From Planctomyces sp. (GTDB lineage Bacteria; Planctomycetota; Planctomycetia; Planctomycetales; Planctomycetaceae), in contig SXKJ01000151.1 in assembly GCA_005778115.1 (NCBI GenBank), positions 1 to 37,008 on the forward strand: 37,008 bases of DNA, written 5' to 3'. The notes under the pieces were generated by a model. That model did no database searches. It saw nothing but the letters and a program-made list of their open reading frames with translations, and was not told where the DNA came from. The position numbers were made by a program, and so were the translations under genes. Positions 11,996-22,842 of the stretch are shown here, piece by piece. Numbering within the stretch: position 1 is the first letter of the stretch; the number at the start of each line of letters is the position of its first letter.

Positions 11996-12667
11996 CTATT
12001 CGCCCGACTTGCCAATCACGACCATTCGCAACGCAACCTTCGATCCGCCTTTCGCGGCAAGTGTCGTGCTGAGCATGGTGTGGTCCTTACTGTCGTCATG
12101 CGTCAAAGTCGGCTTCTCGGCCGGCTTGTCGGACGGGAGCAGCGAGAAAATCGCCGGATGTGTCGAGCCAGCCGTCTTGGCACTTCGCTCCGACAAGTCT
12201 TTGAAATCGCCGAGTGGCTTGGGATCGGCATCCACGGCCGCCGGGATGGCCAACAGAAAGTCCGCCAGATCGCTCGTGCCGACGTGATTGCCGTCTTCCG
12301 GTTGCTGACCGTAACGCAGCGTGAAGACTCCCGGCTTGATCTCCTGCCCGCGGAAGTCGGTGTATTTCGACTTCGCCTGCACATGCAACACGCCGATCAA
12401 CTCGCCCGCCGCAAACGGATACTTCACGTTAAGAGTCGGCTTGAAGTTTGCTTTCATCGGCACCTCTTTGACCAGCCATACCGAGCAAACCGCTCCGTCC
12501 TTGCCGACAACTTTCTGACCATTCGCATCGACGACCGCTGCGATCTCTTTCGACAACCCGTCAGGCAGTCCCGCGACTGCTTCGAGCTTACCTTCGGCTT
12601 GAACGGAACCAGCCAGTGAACACAACGCGGCGGACACAATCACCGCTGTAAACATTCTCAAACGCAT
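11996..12667 (-). CDS. Hypothetical exported protein (223 aa)
   Basis: The protein begins with a signal peptide (MRLRMFTAVIVSAALCSLAG, cleavage near VQA-E). The rest is a soluble domain with no family I recognise. Visible features are VCSVWLVKEVP, FAAGELIGVLHVQAKSKYTD, RGQEIKPGVFTLRYGQQPED and a His/Asp-containing HDDSKDHTML near the end. GAGGAG lies nine bases before the ATG. It precedes the small membrane protein by 17 bases. The mixed beta look suggests a small periplasmic binding or structural domain. Confidence 0.7.
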   Translation of the reverse strand: MRLRMFTAVIVSAALCSLAGSVQAEGKLEAVAGLPDGLSKEIAAVVDANGQKVVGKDGAVCSVWLVKEVPMKANFKPTLNVKYPFAAGELIGVLHVQAKSKYTDFRGQEIKPGVFTLRYGQQPEDGNHVGTSDLADFLLAIPAAVDADPKPLGDFKDLSERSAKTAGSTHPAIFSLLPSDKPAEKPTLTHDDSKDHTMLSTTLAAKGGSKVALRMVVIGKSGE

Positions 12668-12745
12668 CGAACGAATCTCCTCTTGAGGGTGACGGCGAAT
12701 CGGCAGAGATGGTAGCCGTGCCGTTCGCCGATTTCATCAAACAGA

Positions 12746-12777
12746 ACAGCCCGGCTGTTCGAGAACAGCCGGGCTGT
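12746..12777 (-). terminator. Perfect hairpin, possible terminator
   Basis: ACAGCCCGGCTGTTC (12746-12760) and GAACAGCCGGGCTGT (12763-12777) form a perfect 15-base stem with a two-base loop. On the minus strand it is followed by TTCTGTTTGATG, a modest T-rich stretch. It lies 37 bases after the DUF1326 stop and before the next gene, so it could end or weaken read-through. Confidence 0.5.
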
Positions 12778-12796
12778 GATTCGGAATTGTCAGTCA

Positions 12797-12817
12797 CAGG
12801 CGAGCCGCCTGCGCTAG
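12797..12817. repeat. Single REP-like copy at a gene end
   Basis: On the minus strand it reads CTAGCGCAGGCGGCTCGCCTG. It is the same core as the copies at 10969-11019 and 28495-28530. Its TAG is the stop codon of the DUF1326 gene. Confidence 0.75.
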
Positions 12818-13491
12818 TATTTCACTCGGAACGTCGCCAGGAACGCGCTGCGGGTGTTGTTGTTCGTCCATTTGCCGTTCAACCCCTCACCCTGGTACGA
12901 CTGCTTCAGGGCATAAGCCGGAGCAAAATTCTCGACCTTCGTCAGCGGCTGATAAAAGACCATTTCGTTCGTGCAGACGCAGTCGTTCTTCCTCATCTGC
13001 CGAGTCTCAATCGACGCCAGTTTGCCGGCCGAGAAGACTCCCTTGCCTTCCAGATGGTCGTTCTTCAGCGTAATCGGGGCGGAGACGATGTTGATGACGT
13101 TCTTGGTCAACTCTCTCGCGTTTTCTTTGACGAAGGCGATCAGAGCGCTACGTTGCTCCGAGGAAGCATTCTCATCGACGATGATGACTGCTGCCGTCTT
13201 GCCGGCCTGCATGGGGAAGACGCCATCGGTCCCCAGCGTCCCTTCGGCCTTCACGACCAACGCCACACCCAATCCATCCAGCGTCACGCTTCTCCAACTT
13301 CCCTGGTCCACTTTCCAAGCCATCACGGCTTCTTTGCCGGCAAGGCTCATCTCGGCATTGGCGAAGCAAGGGCCGGTGTAAACGTCGCAGGTCCGAGCTT
13401 CGAGGTACTCGCCGGTGATCTTGTCCGCGAGCGCGGCCTGTACCGAGACCATCCACAAAATCGCCGTCAGCAGCAAAGTAAAGATCTTCAT
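12814..13491 (-). CDS. DUF1326 domain exported protein
   Basis: The protein of about 225 residues has a signal peptide (MKIFTLLLTAILWMVSVQAA, cleavage near LA-D). Directly after it comes GEYLEARTCDVYTGPCFANA, the hallmark of DUF1326, a family of unknown function often found beside metal-handling or membrane proteins. The two Cys (TCDVYTGPC) and a later CVC could be a metal or disulfide site. I choose ATG 13491 because AAGGAG lies seven bases upstream; ATG 13494 just before it is equally possible, and a further start ten codons upstream includes the ribosome site itself. Its stop codon lies in a REP-like element. Confidence 0.85.
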   Translation of the reverse strand: MKIFTLLLTAILWMVSVQAALADKITGEYLEARTCDVYTGPCFANAEMSLAGKEAVMAWKVDQGSWRSVTLDGLGVALVVKAEGTLGTDGVFPMQAGKTAAVIIVDENASSEQRSALIAFVKENARELTKNVINIVSAPITLKNDHLEGKGVFSAGKLASIETRQMRKNDCVCTNEMVFYQPLTKVENFAPAYALKQSYQGEGLNGKWTNNNTRSAFLATFRVKY

Positions 13492-13600
13492 CATTAAGCT
13501 CCTTTTTCCAAGGGCGAAGTTCATTCAGCGGTTTCCAAAACCGTTGGGATTCTTGCCTCGGCTCACGAAAACTGACAAGTGAAAAACCGGCCCGAGCTCA

Positions 13601-16459
13601 TTACTTCGCGGCCGCTTGAGCGGTCGTCTCTGGTGGTTTGGGCGGATCGAACTGGCGGATCAGTTGAGCGTTCGTGCCGTTCCAGACGCGGAGGACTCCG
13701 TCTTCGCCGGCGGCGACGACGATTTGCTCGTCGCGAGAGGCTGCAGCGCAGTACATGAAGTCGGTTCCTCCGGCAAAGGCTCGTGGCTGCGAGCCATTAG
13801 TCGCGTTGTGGTAGCGAACGGTCTTGTCGCCACCGGAACTGATTACGTTCTCGGTAACGCCCAGGAAGCGGATCGACGTGACCTGCTTGGAATAGCCGGG
13901 GATCGTGCGAGCTTGCTCGCCGGTTTCCACGTTCCAGATTTTGATGGCGTTGTCAGCCCCGGCACTGGCCAGCAGGCTATTGTCGGCTTTGATCGAGACG
14001 CCCAGGACGTGATGCGTGTGCCCCTCGAAGGATTTCACCAACTTGCCGGCGGCGATGTCCCAAAGCTTTACGAACTTGTCCGCCGCGCCAGTGACGAGGT
14101 ACTTTCCATCGCGGCCGAACTCGATGCTCATCACAGTGTCGCTGTGCGCGTCTTTGAATTCCTTGGCCATCGTTTGAGCGGCGACGTCCCAAATGAAAAG
14201 CTCACCGCTGCGCGATGCTTCGCCACCACCGGTTGCAAGCCACTTACCGTCACGGCTGAACGCGAGACTCAGCACTCGAGCTGCGAACGGCGAGCCGGCG
14301 AAGTCGAGCGGGGTCTCCTTCTTCGGGCCGAGTTGACCAATCAGCGACCAAGTCGGAATCGTCGTCCACACGGCAGCCGTTTGATCGGCCGAGCCGCTGA
14401 CCACGAGACCGTTCGGGCCGGTGGCGATCGCTCCGACGGCAGCCTTGTGGCCGGCAAAGGTTTCAATGGACTTGCCGGTCGTGCTGTCCCAGACATGAAT
14501 CAGGGTGTCGTCGGACGTCGTGAGCAACCGCTTGCCATCCACCGAGAACGCGACCCCTTTCACGGGCTTAAATCCGGCGGCGTCGGCGTCCGTCGCGGCC
14601 TTTAGATCCGCGTCGGATTTCGTGACCGCAGCGGTCGTCGCATCTTGCTGAGCCTTCGCAGCGGTAACTTGTTCCACAGCGGACTTCGCGGCTTGTTCAG
14701 CGAGCGTGATCGCTCGCATCGCCGAGGCAACAGCGTCCTGTCGCTTCTTCAGTTCATCCATTTGCTTCGTGACTTCCGCAGCAGCGTCCGTTGAAGCCTT
14801 GGCCAGAGCCGCATCATCCTTTTTCTCATCAGCCGCTTTCTTGGCGGCTTCGGCCTTCGTGACGGCCTCTTTCACTTTCGGATCTTGTTCGGCCACGGCC
14901 TTATCGGCGTTAGTTTTCGCTTCATTGGCCTTCTTAACCGCTTCGTCTCGCTCCTTCTGATTGGTCTCGGCCGCCTTAAACGAGGCGTCGGCGAGAGCTT
15001 TGAATTGCTGCGCGACCTTTTGGTCTTCCGTCCGTTCCACGATGGCTCGATTGAGCGTCACGTCTCCCTTGAGTTCCGCGACTTGCGCTCCGGTCTGGTT
15101 GTTCCACAGTTTGGCGATGTTGTTCGCACTGCCGGTCGCGACGAACAATCCGTCGGTTCGAACCGCCACCGAATTCACCGGGCCGCCGTGAGCAAACTGT
15201 CGGACCTGATTGCCGGCAGCGAGATCCCAAACGCGAGCCGTTTGGTCTTCGCTGCCCGACAAGACCTGAGCACCCGGAGCGATCAGCGCGAGCGCATTGA
15301 TCGGCCCAGTGTGGCCTTTGATTTCTTTCTCTGGCGTGAACGGAGCGGCTGCCGGAATCGGCCAGACGCGAATGATGTTGTCGGCTTGGCCAACAATGAC
15401 CTTGGCTCCGTCGGCCGTGAAGACAACTGCTTTGGCTGGTGCTGGGGACTCAATCTTGTTGGCTTCGGTGCCGTCGGCGAGATTCCAAACGCGAATCGTC
15501 TTGTCTTCCGAGGCCGAGGCCAGCTTGGTCCCGTCCGCGCTGAATGCGAGACTGTGAATCGCCGCCGCATGTCCGGCCAACACCTTGCCCGCCGCGCCGT
15601 CGGCGAGGTTCCACAACTTAATAGCGTTGTCGGCTCCGGCGGTTGCCAGCGTCTGTCCGTTGGGACTGATAGCAACCGTCGTCAAGACCGCTCCGACAGC
15701 AATCTCTCGCGTGCGATTCGTGGCGGGACGCTGCCACAATTTCACAGTGCGATATCCGCCGGATGCGATGGTGCGACCGTCCGGGCTGAACGCCAGCGAG
15801 TGAACGAAGTCGCGATGTGCGGCTCCCGTCGGATACATCGGCTTGCCATTGTGCAGAATCGCGTTGAGATTCGGATCGAGTAAACGGCCGATCTCGTCGC
15901 CAGTCTCGACATCGAGCAGCAACACCTGGTTGGCTCGACCCGCCGCGACGTAGCGTCCCCACGGAGCCATTGCCACGGAGTAAATGGCCTTAGCCGTCGT
16001 CGGCACCGGCTGCCAATTGACTTGGTCCTTCATTCCTCCCATACCGCCGGTCGCGCCTTCGATAATCCATTGCCGCAAGATTCCAAGCTCTTTCGGCGTG
16101 AGCGCCTTCGCATCAACCTTGTTCGGCAACGGCGGCATCGCTGGGCCTTTGGCCCGCGAGGCCACGACATATAACAAACTCTTATCCGGATCCTTCGGCA
16201 CGATCGACGGGCCGCGTTTGCCACCCTTGATCATCGCATCGAGCTTCTCCAGGTTGAGCTTGCTCTCTTGCTGGCCAAGGTTGTGGCAGGCGATGCAGTT
16301 GTTTTCGAGGATCGGCAGGATGTCCTTGTCGAAATCAACCGGACGGCCGAGGTTGATCGCTTCCGGTGTGATCGCACCGGCCACGGGTTTGGCCTCTTGA
16401 GCAAAGGCAGTCGATCCCATCAGGGCCAAAGTCAGTGACAGAATGGTGAGGCGAGGCAT
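13601..16459 (-). CDS. c-type cytochrome with 14 WD40 blades split by a coiled coil
   Basis: About 952 residues. After a signal peptide (MPRLTILSLTLALMG, cleavage near AFA-Q) comes a planctomycete-type cytochrome domain with haem motif CIACH (Cys55, Cys58, His59). A distal Met is possible in KGPAMPPLP. I count seven WD40 blades from about residue 150 to 465 (for example LASASEDKTIRVWNLADG). An Ala/Lys/Asp-rich coiled coil runs from about 470 to 627, and seven more blades follow (for example LVTGAADKFVKLWDIAAG). This fits two seven-bladed propellers. It is probably exported and involved in protein assembly or electron transfer. I start at ATG 16459, where the signal peptide begins; the TTG at 16486 is less likely. 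It is the last gene of the three-gene set, about 100 bases after the PPC gene. Confidence 0.9.
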   Translation of the reverse strand: MPRLTILSLTLALMGSTAFAQEAKPVAGAITPEAINLGRPVDFDKDILPILENNCIACHNLGQQESKLNLEKLDAMIKGGKRGPSIVPKDPDKSLLYVVASRAKGPAMPPLPNKVDAKALTPKELGILRQWIIEGATGGMGGMKDQVNWQPVPTTAKAIYSVAMAPWGRYVAAGRANQVLLLDVETGDEIGRLLDPNLNAILHNGKPMYPTGAAHRDFVHSLAFSPDGRTIASGGYRTVKLWQRPATNRTREIAVGAVLTTVAISPNGQTLATAGADNAIKLWNLADGAAGKVLAGHAAAIHSLAFSADGTKLASASEDKTIRVWNLADGTEANKIESPAPAKAVVFTADGAKVIVGQADNIIRVWPIPAAAPFTPEKEIKGHTGPINALALIAPGAQVLSGSEDQTARVWDLAAGNQVRQFAHGGPVNSVAVRTDGLFVATGSANNIAKLWNNQTGAQVAELKGDVTLNRAIVERTEDQKVAQQFKALADASFKAAETNQKERDEAVKKANEAKTNADKAVAEQDPKVKEAVTKAEAAKKAADEKKDDAALAKASTDAAAEVTKQMDELKKRQDAVASAMRAITLAEQAAKSAVEQVTAAKAQQDATTAAVTKSDADLKAATDADAAGFKPVKGVAFSVDGKRLLTTSDDTLIHVWDSTTGKSIETFAGHKAAVGAIATGPNGLVVSGSADQTAAVWTTIPTWSLIGQLGPKKETPLDFAGSPFAARVLSLAFSRDGKWLATGGGEASRSGELFIWDVAAQTMAKEFKDAHSDTVMSIEFGRDGKYLVTGAADKFVKLWDIAAGKLVKSFEGHTHHVLGVSIKADNSLLASAGADNAIKIWNVETGEQARTIPGYSKQVTSIRFLGVTENVISSGGDKTVRYHNATNGSQPRAFAGGTDFMYCAAASRDEQIVVAAGEDGVLRVWNGTNAQLIRQFDPPKPPETTAQAAAK

Positions 16460-16488
16460 GGCAGGTCTCTTGAGGCGGGGTGACAAAT

Positions 16489-16560
16489 TTTGGAGTGCGG
16501 TGTGTCAGCACCGATTTCAACTGAGCGACCCAAAGCGGTGCTGACACACCGCACTCCAAA
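16489..16560. repeat. Perfect 25-base inverted repeat between two genes
   Basis: The arms at 16489-16513 (starting TTTGGAGTGCGGTG) and 16536-16560 (ending CACCGCACTCCAAA) pair without mismatch around a 22-base loop. It starts one base after the PPC gene stop on the minus strand and lies before the cytochrome gene. It may lower read-through or stabilise the upstream message. No T-run is present. Confidence 0.9.
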
Positions 16561-16561
16561 G

Positions 16562-19500
16562 CTATTTCGCAACGTTGATGGCGACGGCTCCATCTGAGGC
16601 GGCCACCGCTCCATCGAAGTCCGCGGATGCGCGGATGACGGCATTGGCGATCGCGCCTTCGGTCGCGTCGCCTGCGGCGGTGACGATGATCGCGCCTTCG
16701 GCTTTGTCGGCCGGGATCGTCACTTTCTCGGCGGAGAGTCCGACCGTGCCGGGAGGCGGCACGAGTTCGAGAGTCACTGGCCCCGCGAATCCGTTGACGC
16801 GCTGGATGGTGACTTTGACTTCGACCTTGTCTCCACGCTTGACCGCTCCGCCGTTGGCCGGAGCGGTCGTGACGTTTACGGCATTGGGCTTCACGGTAAT
16901 GACGATGGGAGTCGACGGGGTAAAGACATTGACGGCGTTGGCTTTGGTGGCCGTGTTGGCGTCGGCGAGAGCCTTCTCTTTGGCAGCCTTGTCAGCCAGA
17001 GCCGCTTTGTTCTTGTCGTCGGCCACTTTCGCGTCCGCTTCGCCCTTCGTCTTGGCAGCAATGGCAGCCTTGTTCGCGGCGTCGGAATCGGCGAGAGCTT
17101 TGTCGGCGACAGCCAATGCGTCCGTCGCCTTCTTAGCTTCCTCTTGAGCGGCCGTGAGCGCCTTCGCGGTCGCTTCCTTGTCCGCGTCGGTCGTGGCTTT
17201 GTCTTTGGCTTCGGTCGCCTTCTTCACGGCTTCGGTGGTTACGGTGACTTTCTTTGCAGCCGCCTCTTTGTCTGTGGTCGCCTTCTTGAAAGCCGCGTCC
17301 GTCTCGACGGCCTTCTTGGTGACGGCGTCTTTTTCGGCGTTGGCTTTGGTCAACGCTTCGGTGGCTTGAGTCGCGGCAGCAACGGACAGATCCAGTGCGG
17401 CCTTCGCCTTGTCGGCAAGCTCCGGCCGACGACGGTATTGCACGGCGGCGGTGGCCTTCATGTAAAGCGTGTAGGTTCCGACCGGCACGTTGTTCGGCAG
17501 GAAGACGCGATAGACCCCTTCGGCCGCACCCTTATTGATTGGCTTGTTCTCTGCTTGCGCGTTCTGAGGAGTGCCGACAAACGTCAGGGTTACGTTTTCA
17601 TCGAAACCGTTTCGCTTGAGGAGCTTCACCGGAACGAGAATCTGCCGGTTGTGATTGGCATCGACTCGGAAGACGTCCGTGTTCACTTGGAAGGGGTAGG
17701 CTTCCGGCGTGATCGCCAGGCACAGGTCTCGTGAGAGACGCGAGATTGGGCCAGCCACCGCAGCGTTGCCATCCCAAACCGTTGTGGCGGCTCGGCCGAC
17801 GTGGGCGACGTCACGAGCCGCGGCCTTTTGGGCAGCAATCGCAGCCGTCACCGCCGCGTTGGCGTCCGCGATTCTCTTCTCGGCCGCGGCTTGAGCGTCC
17901 GTCGCGGTCTTGAGTTTCGCGACGGACTGATCGTGTTCCGTGACTGCTTTGGTCTTGGCTTGCTCTGTGGTCTTCAAAACATTGGCCGTATCGGTGGCCG
18001 CCTTGTCGGCGACCGTCTTCTCTTGCACCGCTGCTTTCGTGGCGGCGTCGGCTTCGTTCGCCGTTTTCTCTGCCGCCGCGAATGCGTCTTTCAGTTCTTG
18101 CTTGTCCTTGTCTTTATCGAGTTCCGTTTTGGCCGCCGCAAGTTTGTCGATCGCGACCTTGAGTGCGGCCGCGGTGTCCGTCGCTTTCTTATCAGAGACG
18201 ACCTTCGCGTCGGCCGCTTTCTTGGCGAGATCGGCGTCGGCGGTGAACTTCGTCTCAGCAGCCTGTCGTGTGACGAGGAATTTCTTATCATCCTCGGCCG
18301 CCTTGGCGGCGTCTTGCTGAGTCTTCGGCAACGCATCGACAGCCGGCTTCACAGCCGCTTTGGCGTCCGCGACCGCTTTGACCTTGGCGTTATCTTCAAT
18401 GCGAGCTTTCGCCACGATCTTCGCGAAGCCAAATGTTCCGTCGGCCGCGTCCTCAGTTGCCGAGAACACGATCGTGGCATTCGTCTGGCCGGGGCCGATG
18501 CTCGTTCCCTTGCAAGTGATCCCTGGCGGCAAGTTTTCTACGGTGACATCAATCGTGCCGTTGTAGCCGTCGCGGCGGTACGCGATGACTCGGCAAGAAA
18601 GGTTCTCCCCTTTACGGAGGTTGGCGGGATACGTTGCGGCAGTCGTGTTGTTGTCGGCCAGTGGAGATTCCGGCAACACGACCACTTTGAAGTCGGGAGC
18701 TTCTTTGCGAATCGACAGTCGGTAGACCATGCGAGCGTCACCGCGTGACTCGTAATAGCGGTCACGGATCGTCAGCCGATAAGTTCCGTCGGCCGGCACC
18801 ACAAACTGAAACGCCGGGTCGTCGCTGAGCGTCTCGAAGACGTTTGGGATCAAGTTTACTCCCGTGTCGTCCTGAGCCGTAATCCGCTGGACCGTCTCGA
18901 CCCCTTTGTCGTCTTTCGTGACTCGGTCGAGCGTGATGTAAGGATCGGCCTGGGAGCCGTGCCGGTCGCCGAACGCTTCAATCCAATAGACCTCTTGAGC
19001 CTTCGCGTCGAACGTGAAGAAGTCCACGTCACGGCGAGCCTGAAACTGCCCGGCGACTTCGGCAGGGACGGTAATCTTGTTGGCTTGAGCTGGTGCGTCG
19101 TTCGGTTCTTGTTCCAATCCGACCGGTGCGGGAGCGACAAACATCGTCAGAGGATTCGCATTACCGGCGGGGGTGTTCCAAACATAGCTGAAGGCATCCA
19201 CTCCCCCTTGGATCGCGCCGAGGTTGTCGGCTGCTTGGGTGTTCTCGGCATCGCCCGGCACCGTAACGGACACGGCGACCTTTTCGAGCGGCCGGCCATC
19301 GACGCTGACTCCGGCCGGTTGCCCGCCGGGAAGATTGCGGCCGAAGAGTGTGACCTGCGAATTCGATCCTGCCACGCCAGCGGGAGGCAACGCGAAGTCG
19401 ATGTAGGGGCCTGTCGTGACGGTCAGCCGATAGAAGTGATCGACACTGCCGCCATAGACCTGGTCGATGATTCGCAGGAAGTAATCACCGTCGGCCGGAA

Positions 19501-20188
19501 GTGTCACGTCGAGCACCGCATCTCGTCTTCCGGCACTACGAGAAAATGCCAAACGACGACCGGTTTGAACGGCCTGGGGACTCGGAGCCGCGGCCGCACC
19601 TGCCGCTGGGGGCGGAACGACGCCCGCTGCATCGTAGAGTTCGATTTGTGCTTTGAGCTTCGAGTCGATGCGACCAGCCTGGCAAAGACACAAGACCCGC
19701 TGTCCCGCCTTGCCGGTGAATTTGAAGTAGTCGTAGGCACTGCCGTCGGTGCGGCCGTTGACCGTCGAATTCAGCTCGACCGGCGTCGCCTGTTCGCGGG
19801 CGTTGTTCGGTTCGAGCTCGTTGATCTCTTTGCGTGACCCGACGACGAAGCTGCGCGGATTGCTGACGCCGAAACGTCCGCTGAATCGGACTTCATAGAT
19901 TCCATCCGGCACGCCCGCCGCGACAGTGACGACAAACGTGCTGGCGACGGGAGTCTTCACACCGTTGGCATCGGTGACCTTCTGCGCGGCCGTGATTCCC
20001 GGATGGTTGAAGATCAACCGATTGGCCTCATCCATCTCCGCACCGTTGGAGATGGCGACTTCCGTAGCCACGCCGACCTGTGCTCCCGGCGGGAACACCG
20101 AAAACAACTTCGCCTGGGGAAGTTGAGCGAACGCGGACGTCGCTCCGATCAAGGCCGTGGCGGCAACGAACGCAAAAGTGCGAGTCAT
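16562..20188 (-). CDS. PPC-domain exported protein with two long coiled coils
   Basis: About 1208 residues with a signal peptide (MTRTFAFVAATALIGATSAF). An N-terminal Ig-like part (about 25-100) is followed by two pre-peptidase C-terminal (PPC) domains, each opening with an ELEPNN or EQEPND motif (about 110-270 and 359-499). An Ig-like segment follows. A coiled coil rich in Ala, Lys, Asp and Thr runs from about 596 to 803, a beta segment follows, and a second coiled coil runs from about 926 to 1086. A C-terminal beta domain ends the protein. There is no protease domain. The coiled coils resemble the one in the neighbouring cytochrome/WD40 protein, which suggests that the two bind. The start is ATG 20188, where the signal peptide begins, with GAGAG upstream. 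It follows the DUF1549 gene by about 145 bases. Confidence 0.88.
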   Translation of the reverse strand: MTRTFAFVAATALIGATSAFAQLPQAKLFSVFPPGAQVGVATEVAISNGAEMDEANRLIFNHPGITAAQKVTDANGVKTPVASTFVVTVAAGVPDGIYEVRFSGRFGVSNPRSFVVGSRKEINELEPNNAREQATPVELNSTVNGRTDGSAYDYFKFTGKAGQRVLCLCQAGRIDSKLKAQIELYDAAGVVPPPAAGAAAAPSPQAVQTGRRLAFSRSAGRRDAVLDVTLPADGDYFLRIIDQVYGGSVDHFYRLTVTTGPYIDFALPPAGVAGSNSQVTLFGRNLPGGQPAGVSVDGRPLEKVAVSVTVPGDAENTQAADNLGAIQGGVDAFSYVWNTPAGNANPLTMFVAPAPVGLEQEPNDAPAQANKITVPAEVAGQFQARRDVDFFTFDAKAQEVYWIEAFGDRHGSQADPYITLDRVTKDDKGVETVQRITAQDDTGVNLIPNVFETLSDDPAFQFVVPADGTYRLTIRDRYYESRGDARMVYRLSIRKEAPDFKVVVLPESPLADNNTTAATYPANLRKGENLSCRVIAYRRDGYNGTIDVTVENLPPGITCKGTSIGPGQTNATIVFSATEDAADGTFGFAKIVAKARIEDNAKVKAVADAKAAVKPAVDALPKTQQDAAKAAEDDKKFLVTRQAAETKFTADADLAKKAADAKVVSDKKATDTAAALKVAIDKLAAAKTELDKDKDKQELKDAFAAAEKTANEADAATKAAVQEKTVADKAATDTANVLKTTEQAKTKAVTEHDQSVAKLKTATDAQAAAEKRIADANAAVTAAIAAQKAAARDVAHVGRAATTVWDGNAAVAGPISRLSRDLCLAITPEAYPFQVNTDVFRVDANHNRQILVPVKLLKRNGFDENVTLTFVGTPQNAQAENKPINKGAAEGVYRVFLPNNVPVGTYTLYMKATAAVQYRRRPELADKAKAALDLSVAAATQATEALTKANAEKDAVTKKAVETDAAFKKATTDKEAAAKKVTVTTEAVKKATEAKDKATTDADKEATAKALTAAQEEAKKATDALAVADKALADSDAANKAAIAAKTKGEADAKVADDKNKAALADKAAKEKALADANTATKANAVNVFTPSTPIVITVKPNAVNVTTAPANGGAVKRGDKVEVKVTIQRVNGFAGPVTLELVPPPGTVGLSAEKVTIPADKAEGAIIVTAAGDATEGAIANAVIRASADFDGAVAASDGAVAINVAK

Positions 20189-20334
20189 GGCAACTCTCAT
20201 CAAGGAAGGCGGGAAAAGTCTGAGGCTTAAAAAATGACAGAGGAATGTGGGCAGGGGAATGAGCTCGATTGAAGTCGATTCACTCCGGTGCCTCCATTCC
20301 TCTGCCAAGTGCTTTCATCGAAACGACGAACGAA

Positions 20335-22842
20335 TTAGTGGTTGAACAAGAACTCTTTCGTGTTGATGAGTGCCCACAGGATGTCCTCGTAGGCAACCTT
20401 CGGGGCCGCTTCGTGCTTGGCGAGGTGGGCCAACGCGATCTTGGTCTCGTCGGCGTTCGGTTCGCGGGAGTAGACCCAGCGGTACATCTCCTTGACCTTC
20501 TCCTCGTGCGTGCGGACTTTGTCATTGGCCATCGTGGTCGCTCGGCCGGAAGCGTTCGCGATCTTGTCTTGCACTTCGCTGCTGTTGAGTAGGTGCAGGC
20601 TTTGAGCGAGGTTCGCCTCTTGCGAGCGTTCACATTCGCAGGCGGTGTCCCCTTGCGGTTGACCGAAGACCTTCAAGAAATACGGGCCGATGCTGGCGTC
20701 CGGCAGTTGCACGGCCTTCGTGCCGGGGGGCAGCGAGCCGAAGTTCTGCGTGGTGTTCGTGACGCGATGGAAGCCGTCGTAGAGCACCTCGGCCGTCAGA
20801 CGTTTTGGGTAGTAGCGGGAGAAGTTTTGCTTGTCCTTCAAGTTGTAGTCGTTGGGCAGCGAGCTGAGTTGGTAGGTGCTCGACGAGGTAATCGTCTTGA
20901 CCAGCCACTTCAGGTTGAAGCCGCTCTCAATGAACCCCTTCGCCAGTTTGTCGAGCAGTTCCGGGTTCGAGGGGGGATTCGTCTCACGCATATCGTCTTC
21001 CGGTTCGACGATGCCGCGATCGAAGAAGTGTTTCCAGTAGCGATTGACAACAGACTTCGCGAAGAACGGGTTGTTCTTGTCGGCCATCCAATCGGCGAGG
21101 AAATGTCGCGGATCGCGATCGGCGGCGATCTCCAGAGCAGGCGAGCCAAGTCCCGTCGGCTTTAGTGACTGACCGTTACGCGGGTTCGTCGCGGCGGCCA
21201 CACCGTCATTGTGGAAGACACGCTTGTCGCGAGAAGCTTTCGCCATACCGGGCTCGAAAATGTTCTTCTTGCCAACTCGGGTGAAGAACGCACTGAAACC
21301 GTAGTAGTCGTTCTGGCTCCATTTCTCGAACGGATGGTGGTGGCAGCGAGCACATTGAATTCGCAGGCCGAGGAACAACTGGGCCGCGTCTTCGACTTGT
21401 TCGTTGTTCTCGTCCACTTCGCGGTACCACACAACCGCTGGGTTCGTGGCCGAGTCACCCGAAGCCGTCAGCACTTCGCGGACGATCTGGTCGTAGGGCT
21501 TGTTCTCGTAGAGGTTCGACCAAATCCATTGATAGAAACCGTAGGTCGCGGAGTTGTCGTCCAGGGTGCGGTTCTTGTTCCGCAAGACGAGGTTCCATTT
21601 GTTAGCGAAGTAGTCGGCGTAGTCAGTCGACTCGAGCAGCCGATCAACCAGCTTGTCTCGCTTGGCCGGATCGGTGTCGGCGAGGAATGCTCGGACTTGT
21701 TCTTCGGTTGGCAGCGTGCCACTGACATCGATCGAAACGCGGCGCAGAAAGGTCGCATCGTCAGCCAGCGGTGACGGCGGAATGCCGAGCACCTTCAGTT
21801 TGCCGAAGACGGCTTCATCGATGAAGCCTTTGGCCGTCGGAATGGTGCCGATGTCGGCACCGAGAGGAATCGTTGCACGAAATGTCGAGACAGTTCCTTG
21901 ATACCGCGCCATGATCGCGACCTCTCCGGCGAGGTCGAGCGTCTTGATCATGCCGGTGTTCGTGGCTTCGGCCATTTCGGTGTCGTTGGCTTCAAACAGA
22001 GCCATCCGAGTCACGTCTTCGGTCGTGCCGTCGCTGTAGGTCGCGATGACCGTGATCTGCTGATCGGCTCCACGATCCATGACCCGGCTTTCGGGCAAAC
22101 ACTTGATGCCGGCGACGTAAGCGTCCTTGTCGGAACCGTATGGCATTCCTTGCTCAACCCAGCGTGAGATCAAGCGGAACTCGTAGCTATCGACGTCCAT
22201 TCGCTTGCCGCCGCCGTGTGGCGAGCGGCCAGTGGCCTTCATCAACAGCAAGCTTTCGGAGGGAGACGAGGGGAAGAGACGTCGTCCGCGATTCTCTTTG
22301 ACGAGGAACTCGTGATCCTCATCGGGATAGAAACCAAGCAGCGAGAGCTTGAATCCGTTTTGCCCGGACGCCTTGCCGTGGCAGCCACCGCTATTGCAGC
22401 CGAGCTTCGTGAAGATCGGGACGATCTGGTTCTTAAAGTTGATGGGGATTTGGTTCTCGACTCCCTCGACGTGAATCGAGGCCGAGACGTTTAAGCCGTT
22501 GCCGGTGACTTTCAACGTGACATCGCCGTCTTTAATCGGCGTGATCAACCCGGTCGCATCGACGTTGACGATCCCCGCCGGTTCGGCGGAGTACTGCACC
22601 TTACGGGTGTGGTCGCGAAGCTGGCCACTGGAGTAATTGCCGGTGACATAAACTTGCTGGCGGGCGTCTCGGCCTCGCAGCACGATGGGCTTGCCGTCCA
22701 CCGTTGGCTCCACTTTCAGAGCGGAGAGCTGTCCCGGATCGCCCAATCCCTTGGGTTTCGCGGGTTCCGCAAACGCGGAGTTGAGGGTCGCGAACGCACT
22801 CGCGGCGGTCACGGCGAACAGCAAACGATTCGTCATCCTCAT
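20335..22842 (-). CDS. DUF1549/DUF1553 cytochrome-like exported protein
   Basis: The 835-residue protein is of the DUF1549/DUF1553 planctomycete type. A signal peptide is followed by a Big2-type Ig domain (about 40-125) and a haem-like motif C149-x4-C154-H155 (CNSGGCHG). A second Ig-like part follows, then DUF1549 (from about 340, VFGKLKVLGIPPSPLADDATF). C497-x2-C500-H501 (CARCHHHPFE) and DUF1553 (KSVVNRYWKHFFDRG, later DILWALINTKEFLFNH) complete it. These proteins are often paired with DUF1501 partners; here the partners are instead a PPC protein and a cytochrome/WD40 protein. Their role is unknown; haem binding is likely. TAGGAG lies six bases before the ATG. It is the first gene of the set. 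Confidence 0.95.
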   Translation of the reverse strand: MRMTNRLLFAVTAASAFATLNSAFAEPAKPKGLGDPGQLSALKVEPTVDGKPIVLRGRDARQQVYVTGNYSSGQLRDHTRKVQYSAEPAGIVNVDATGLITPIKDGDVTLKVTGNGLNVSASIHVEGVENQIPINFKNQIVPIFTKLGCNSGGCHGKASGQNGFKLSLLGFYPDEDHEFLVKENRGRRLFPSSPSESLLLMKATGRSPHGGGKRMDVDSYEFRLISRWVEQGMPYGSDKDAYVAGIKCLPESRVMDRGADQQITVIATYSDGTTEDVTRMALFEANDTEMAEATNTGMIKTLDLAGEVAIMARYQGTVSTFRATIPLGADIGTIPTAKGFIDEAVFGKLKVLGIPPSPLADDATFLRRVSIDVSGTLPTEEQVRAFLADTDPAKRDKLVDRLLESTDYADYFANKWNLVLRNKNRTLDDNSATYGFYQWIWSNLYENKPYDQIVREVLTASGDSATNPAVVWYREVDENNEQVEDAAQLFLGLRIQCARCHHHPFEKWSQNDYYGFSAFFTRVGKKNIFEPGMAKASRDKRVFHNDGVAAATNPRNGQSLKPTGLGSPALEIAADRDPRHFLADWMADKNNPFFAKSVVNRYWKHFFDRGIVEPEDDMRETNPPSNPELLDKLAKGFIESGFNLKWLVKTITSSSTYQLSSLPNDYNLKDKQNFSRYYPKRLTAEVLYDGFHRVTNTTQNFGSLPPGTKAVQLPDASIGPYFLKVFGQPQGDTACECERSQEANLAQSLHLLNSSEVQDKIANASGRATTMANDKVRTHEEKVKEMYRWVYSREPNADETKIALAHLAKHEAAPKVAYEDILWALINTKEFLFNH

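Follow-up and report, generated by a model that had tools for sequence, protein, structure and literature searches.

A conserved planctomycete gene set in which a cytochrome–WD40 protein and its PPC-domain neighbour carry hairpin arms, and copying of arm centres between them

We describe a gene set of planctomycetes that encodes a PSD1 protein, a beta-domain protein with a PPC domain (PPC) and a protein that joins a cytochrome c domain to WD40 propellers (WDC). PPC and WDC carry long helical hairpins, and what is new here is that in seven genera the long WDC arms are mosaics, their centre being a copy of PPC hairpin DNA from their own genome. We put the chances at about even that the three proteins form an exported module in which the hairpins are exchangeable spacers that make contact at their tips. 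The window referred to below is the whole stretch of DNA that was analysed (37,008 nucleotides of contig SXKJ01000151.1, Planctomyces sp.).

Results

A conserved set of three genes

The genes of the set and the one downstream of it are as follows.

20335..22842, minus strand: PSD1, a DUF1549/DUF1553 protein with a Big_2 domain and CARCH and Cx4CH motifs (Pfam, motif scan)
16562..20308, minus strand, probable start near 20188: PPC, a putatively exported beta-domain protein with two hairpins (open reading frame, Pfam PPC, model)
13601..16486, minus strand: WDC, with a cytochrome c domain, a double WD40 propeller and a hairpin (open reading frame, Pfam WD40, model)
12814..13524, minus strand: DUF1326 protein, downstream of WDC (Pfam DUF1326, 3e-16; neighbourhood comparison)

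In Pfam, the PSD1 protein belongs to both PSCyt2 (PF07583; 1e-50, 173 bits against a cut-off of 29.8) and PSD1 (PF07587; 7e-48, 163.5 bits against a cut-off of 28.5). PPC is placed in PF04151 (3e-6, 28.4 bits against a cut-off of 25.9), and its N-terminal part has a fold match to PPC/collagen-binding domains. Signal-peptide-like N-termini, read by eye from the sequence, occur on PSD1, PPC and WDC and suggest that all three are exported. The distribution of these genes was followed in 478 genomes from the class and in some 120 gene neighbourhoods. The order PSD1-PPC-WDC was kept in at least nine families of the class, which shows that the gene set is conserved, and we infer that the three genes constitute one exported module. 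On the 3' side of WDC (11996-13524), the DUF1326 protein is followed by a small open reading frame without assignment. Both were found in close relatives of the window only and not in the other genera searched, and because of this the DUF1326 protein probably lies outside the core module.

The Ig-like N-terminal stretch of PSD1 (residues ~46-127; window 22462-22707, minus strand) resembles the teneurin-like structures 9pt5 and 9ifo (E about 7e-19), a stronger match than its Pfam Big_2 match would suggest. In one relative (L069:4580-7120), a single stop codon splits PSD1 into two open reading frames of the same frame.

Helical hairpins on WDC and PPC

An HMM of composition found one stretch rich in Ala, Lys, Asp and Thr in WDC (152 residues) and two in PPC (203 and 163 residues). 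These agree with the preliminary description of this DNA, which had reported one coiled stretch of about 155 residues in WDC and two in PPC (596-803 and 926-1086), the latter matching after an offset of 40 residues in the numbering. Its observations that the two genes are adjacent and that the stretches are alike in composition also hold (Ala 28-34%, Lys 14-18%, Asp 10-11% and Thr 8-12% across both proteins). We analysed these stretches with AlphaFold2 models of single chains, made with alignments of 51 relatives of WDC and 48 of PPC (mean pLDDT 89.7 for WDC and 89.3 for PPC). The stretches had been taken to be open coils, but the models give symmetric antiparallel hairpins closed on themselves.

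14576..15061, minus strand: WDC hairpin, residues 476-637 (AlphaFold2 model; missing from the f2 relatives, which keep both propellers)
17819..18391, minus strand: PPC hairpin 1, residues 640-830 (AlphaFold2 model; clean insertion against hairpin-free relatives)
16949..17425, minus strand: PPC hairpin 2, residues 962-1120 (AlphaFold2 model; clean insertion against hairpin-free relatives)

In the models the two WDC helices cover 476-554 and 559-637 (79 residues each); those of PPC hairpin 1 cover 640-732 and 737-830 (about 93 and 94 residues) and those of hairpin 2 cover 962-1037 and 1041-1120 (76 and 80 residues). The predicted length of the arms is about 11-14 nm. Each hairpin is a clean insertion within a beta domain, and hairpin-free relatives read straight across the insertion sites of PPC. 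Both ends of an insertion connect to strands that lie side by side, so the chain has to come back to where it left, and this supports the hairpin independently of the model. At the WDC tip, Ala, Leu and Ala are conserved at 90% or more.

The midpoint of all three hairpin types often reads Pro-Asp-Asp-x-x-Leu-Lys or a near variant, which is likely to be a turn with a helix cap. Because helix-capping turns in general look much like it, this motif was given no weight as proof of homology.

A cytochrome domain and predicted nested propellers in WDC

WDC has a single CxxCH motif with a later Met-Pro-Pro, and these C, C, H, M, P and P residues are invariant in 51 relatives. Judged by its CxxCH motif and distal Met, the N-terminus of WDC can be classed as a c-type, mono-haem cytochrome domain. 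The parts of WDC other than the hairpin are listed here.

16019..16333, minus strand: cytochrome c domain; CIACH at residues 64-68, followed by Met117-Pro-Pro (alignment of relatives, motif scan)
15722..15985, minus strand: propeller B, first part, residues 168-255 (strand count, short-form sequence test; presumed to pair with the second part)
15071..15721, minus strand: propeller A, first part, residues 256-472 (superposition on seven-bladed propellers, sequence test with short relatives)
14348..14563, minus strand: propeller A, second part, residues 642-713 (superposition, sequence test with short relatives)
13649..14347, minus strand: propeller B, second part, residues 714-946 (strand count, short-form sequence test; presumed to pair with the first part)

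Pfam WD40 repeats and a Z score of 43 to 5yzv_D place WDC among the WD40 proteins, and the AlphaFold2 model contains 56 strands, that is, 14 blades. Model residues 240-692 superpose on known seven-bladed propellers (1.5 Å over about 281 residues), and this range fits 240-456 plus 626-692 in model residues with the hairpin omitted. The structural matches in the VIA list are single propellers, and the absence of other families among the matches listed carries no meaning. From the alignment ranges and the sequence tests, propeller A is predicted to be nested in propeller B and in turn to enclose the hairpin; propeller B would then consist of the 28 strands left over. Of the earlier idea of a coiled stretch between two sets of seven blades, the number of blades stands, but the position of the stretch does not.

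The nine single-propeller relatives (about 500 residues) gave their best score against WDC joined near residues 240 and 698; one short relative, for example, scored 865 against this form versus 502 against the first seven blades. The f2 relatives (about 780 residues) match WDC minus the hairpin alone, with both propellers kept. From these short relatives and f2 forms it follows that WDC occurs in three states: propeller B by itself, B enclosing a nested A, and this pair with the hairpin added. The superposition and the scores of the nine short relatives led us to reject a tandem order of the propellers.

Hairpins occur together but their lengths vary independently

We counted hairpins in the 95 operons in which PPC and WDC are both complete. 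Both proteins had hairpins in 73 of these, neither had one in 18 and a single protein had them in 4, so that 91 of the 95 are concordant. The one-sided operons are three from family f14 with a hairpin in WDC alone and one (G039) with a hairpin in PPC alone. PSD1 lay upstream at a distance of no more than 700 bp in 66 of the 73 operons with both hairpins versus 1 of the 18 hairpin-free ones. The co-occurrence is real, yet it is based on few events because each trait needs about four changes on the PPC tree, and an independent-pairs test, which was underpowered, gave no significance.

WDC arms have lengths of 121-344 residues and PPC hairpin 2 has 73-297, while hairpin 1 is often missing among relatives and otherwise reaches 321 residues. 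We compared arm lengths by phylogenetic contrasts (n = 72) and found no correlation of the WDC arm with hairpin 2 (r = -0.15) or with hairpin 1 (r = 0.11); a value of -0.04 was also obtained. Matched lengths are favoured by pairing in register, so that their absence from these contrasts counts against such pairing of WDC with PPC. The preliminary description had named independent variation of the coils among relatives beforehand as evidence against its proposal, and the lengths come close to that.

Paralogous clusters with the order WDC-PSD1-PPC-WDC, at times with one WDC more, were seen in several genera (L131, L132, L160, L161, L165 and L167). In these clusters the WDC after PPC has about 1330-1660 residues and a hairpin, and the WDC before PSD1 has no hairpin. 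Some paralogous PPC-PSD1 pairs (L117, L129 and L157) have a PPC hairpin, with no adjoining WDC found on the stretch covered. In L163:6577-9165, the PPC reading frame stops soon after the start of hairpin 2, which may be a truncation or a sequencing error.

Centres of long WDC arms in relatives, probably copied from PPC

Within the L104 genome, the WDC hairpin can be aligned with PPC hairpin 2 along some 200 residues, and the two tips coincide. At the DNA level, hairpins of WDC and PPC from the same genome score 113-406 in ten genomes of seven genera versus a maximum of 107 in 2322 cross-genus comparisons. The copied segments are 222-557 nt long with 70-80% identity, and in each of the two hairpins their centre lies at 0.42-0.59 of the length. 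When these sequences were shuffled by codon or by heptad register, the scores stayed below those observed; together with the cross-genus controls, these shuffles rule out shared composition alone as the source of the long similarity. A separate repeat finder recovered the same 300-nt direct repeats in L057, L104 and L110. For L057, tandem-repeat expansion was ruled out, as TRF detected no array within its hairpins. Direct repeats in the L104 and L110 hairpins are often 21 or 63 nt apart (7 or 21 codons), as expected for arms built of heptads.

The WDC arms of the seven genera are mosaic, with bases that resemble other WDC arms and centres that mostly resemble PPC arms, and the direction of copying would therefore be mostly from PPC to WDC. 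A copy was seen in 7 of 8 long-armed genera versus 0 of 31 short-armed ones. Genus g52 is mixed, with a copy in L106 and L189 but not in L188. The partner from the same genome was the best match at the tip in 11 of 79 cases versus 3 of 158 at the bases (p 0.0005). Hairpins 1 and 2 of PPC are copies of each other in L110 (85% over 428 nt) and L093. Whole-genome DNA search of G017 located the cassette in the WDC and PPC genes alone, and G106 has two extra short cassette matches, one of them within another WDC-like gene. There were probably four to six independent copying events because some of the seven genera are sisters. The lone long-armed genus with no detectable copy, g49 (L123, L124 and L125), has a WDC arm of 289 residues, a PPC hairpin 2 of 85-90 residues and no hairpin 1.

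Compared with congeners, the own-genome partner showed no excess overall (25 of 66 versus 24 expected). Copying is episodic and is not seen within most genera, and this lack of own-genome excess rules out continuing concerted evolution. Repeated copying of tips between neighbours that are otherwise not homologous is direct evidence that the arms can be exchanged. Lengthening of the WDC arm by copying the tip of its neighbour's arm suggests that WDC and PPC work together.

The hairpins of the window itself align with one another above first-order Markov shuffles at the protein level (p 0.005-0.007), and the DNA of its WDC and PPC hairpins has marginal similarity. The repeat finder detected no long repeat among them, and a genome search with PPC hairpin 1 of the window matched itself alone. 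It is relatives that provide the evidence of copying, and the window is without a recent copy.

Discussion

These results suggest a joint device of WDC and PPC in the cell envelope. In such a device WDC would combine a double propeller with a cytochrome c domain for a single haem, and PPC would be a scaffold of beta domains. The arms, which vary in length and are placed in loops with ends close together, would be interchangeable extension pieces; in relatives they grew in episodes, when the WDC tip received a copied PPC hairpin stretch with both arm halves and the tip. Their most likely role would be that of spacers. Through the tips, the propeller with its haem and the scaffold would reach a shared point of contact, which may be the tip of the partner's arm or a third component of the envelope. 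Unequal arm lengths are compatible with this because contact at the tips needs no equal lengths. The AlphaFold2 models are of single chains, and contact between WDC and PPC, if any, would be at the tips. We regard as distinctly speculative the fuller proposal of a modular, tip-grafted reach system that joins a haem propeller to an envelope scaffold, in which like tips on long arms link WDC to PPC, or both to a shared partner, and an arm grows in one step by copying the tip and distal halves of its neighbour.

A serious rival, although we think it somewhat unlikely, is neutral turnover of the arms. Permissive Ala/Lys-rich insertions would at times recombine through repeat-like DNA in adjacent genes, and those centred on the tip would survive, with no contact between WDC and PPC implied. 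What makes this serious is that the tip is the site where a copied arm pair can enter without breaking the hairpin, and the tip bias of the copies may reflect merely where insertion keeps the hairpin intact. The independent lengths of WDC and PPC arms, the episodic copying, the copying between the two PPC hairpins and the heptad-spaced repeats in the hairpin DNA are all consistent with neutral turnover. By contrast, the joint presence or absence of hairpins in nearly all operons, their association with a PSD1 neighbour and the conserved residues of the WDC tip argue against it.

The preliminary description had proposed a hetero-oligomer held together by coiled coils, which can be read as the WDC coil packing side by side with those of PPC. 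Gene adjacency and the co-occurrence of hairpins fit this, and sequences so alike would permit bundles of like with like; however, the hairpins close on themselves in the models, their lengths are uncorrelated, and the f14 and G039 operons have a hairpin on one side only. We consider lateral pairing improbable. What survives of that proposal is a joint function of WDC and PPC, which is likely given that the gene set is kept, that hairpins are concordant and that WDC arms were lengthened with PPC sequence. A reading in which the stretches form oligomeric, parallel rods like those of TolA, and the hairpin arises artificially from modelling one chain at a time, is very improbable: the arms share the Ala/Lys/Asp-rich helical composition of TolA domain II, and the WDC stretch has a weak, composition-level match to NCBIfam TolA (19.9 bits, below the cut-off of 213), but the arms are internal hairpins and not a rod, insertion between neighbouring propeller strands needs a return of the chain, the helices are symmetric about a central turn, and the copied segments are centred on that turn.

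The reading with spacers that meet at their tips can be set beside systems described earlier. Rhodopirellula and Verrucomicrobia have been reported to carry planctomycete-specific cytochrome genes, PSCyt1-3 together with PSD1-5 (PMC5615132). The module resembles these in the PSCyt2 and PSD1 domains of its PSD1 protein, in its haem motifs and in the occurrence of WD40 and Big_2 among such proteins, but the fixed order of three genes, the nested double propeller and the three hairpin arms are not in that report. Propeller A superposes on seven-bladed WD40 propellers such as 5yzv of Thermomonospora curvata. Unlike this protein and double propellers such as AIP1 (1nr0), WDC is predicted to have one propeller nested in another and an inner hairpin, and it starts with a cytochrome c domain. 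PPC matches collagenase PPC domains (5iku, 1nqd and 5sv5) in the fold of its N-terminal part and in sequence, but it has no protease, and its beta domains follow one another in a long chain that bears two hairpins. EmrA (4tko, HlyD type) and RipA (9hmx) also have a long antiparallel hairpin on a beta scaffold, with weak fold matches (E 0.015 for EmrA); this is a likeness of principle, too weak for kinship, and no transporter or peptidase neighbour was seen in neighbourhoods that were searched for the window's own genes alone. A literature search on PSCyt, WD40 and coiled coils and on conversion of coiled coils between adjacent genes, with most subscription papers outside its reach, found no description of such a system.

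The conserved three-gene module with its defined anatomy offers a concrete target. The copying of arm centres shows how long coiled-coil arms can grow symmetrically in a single event.
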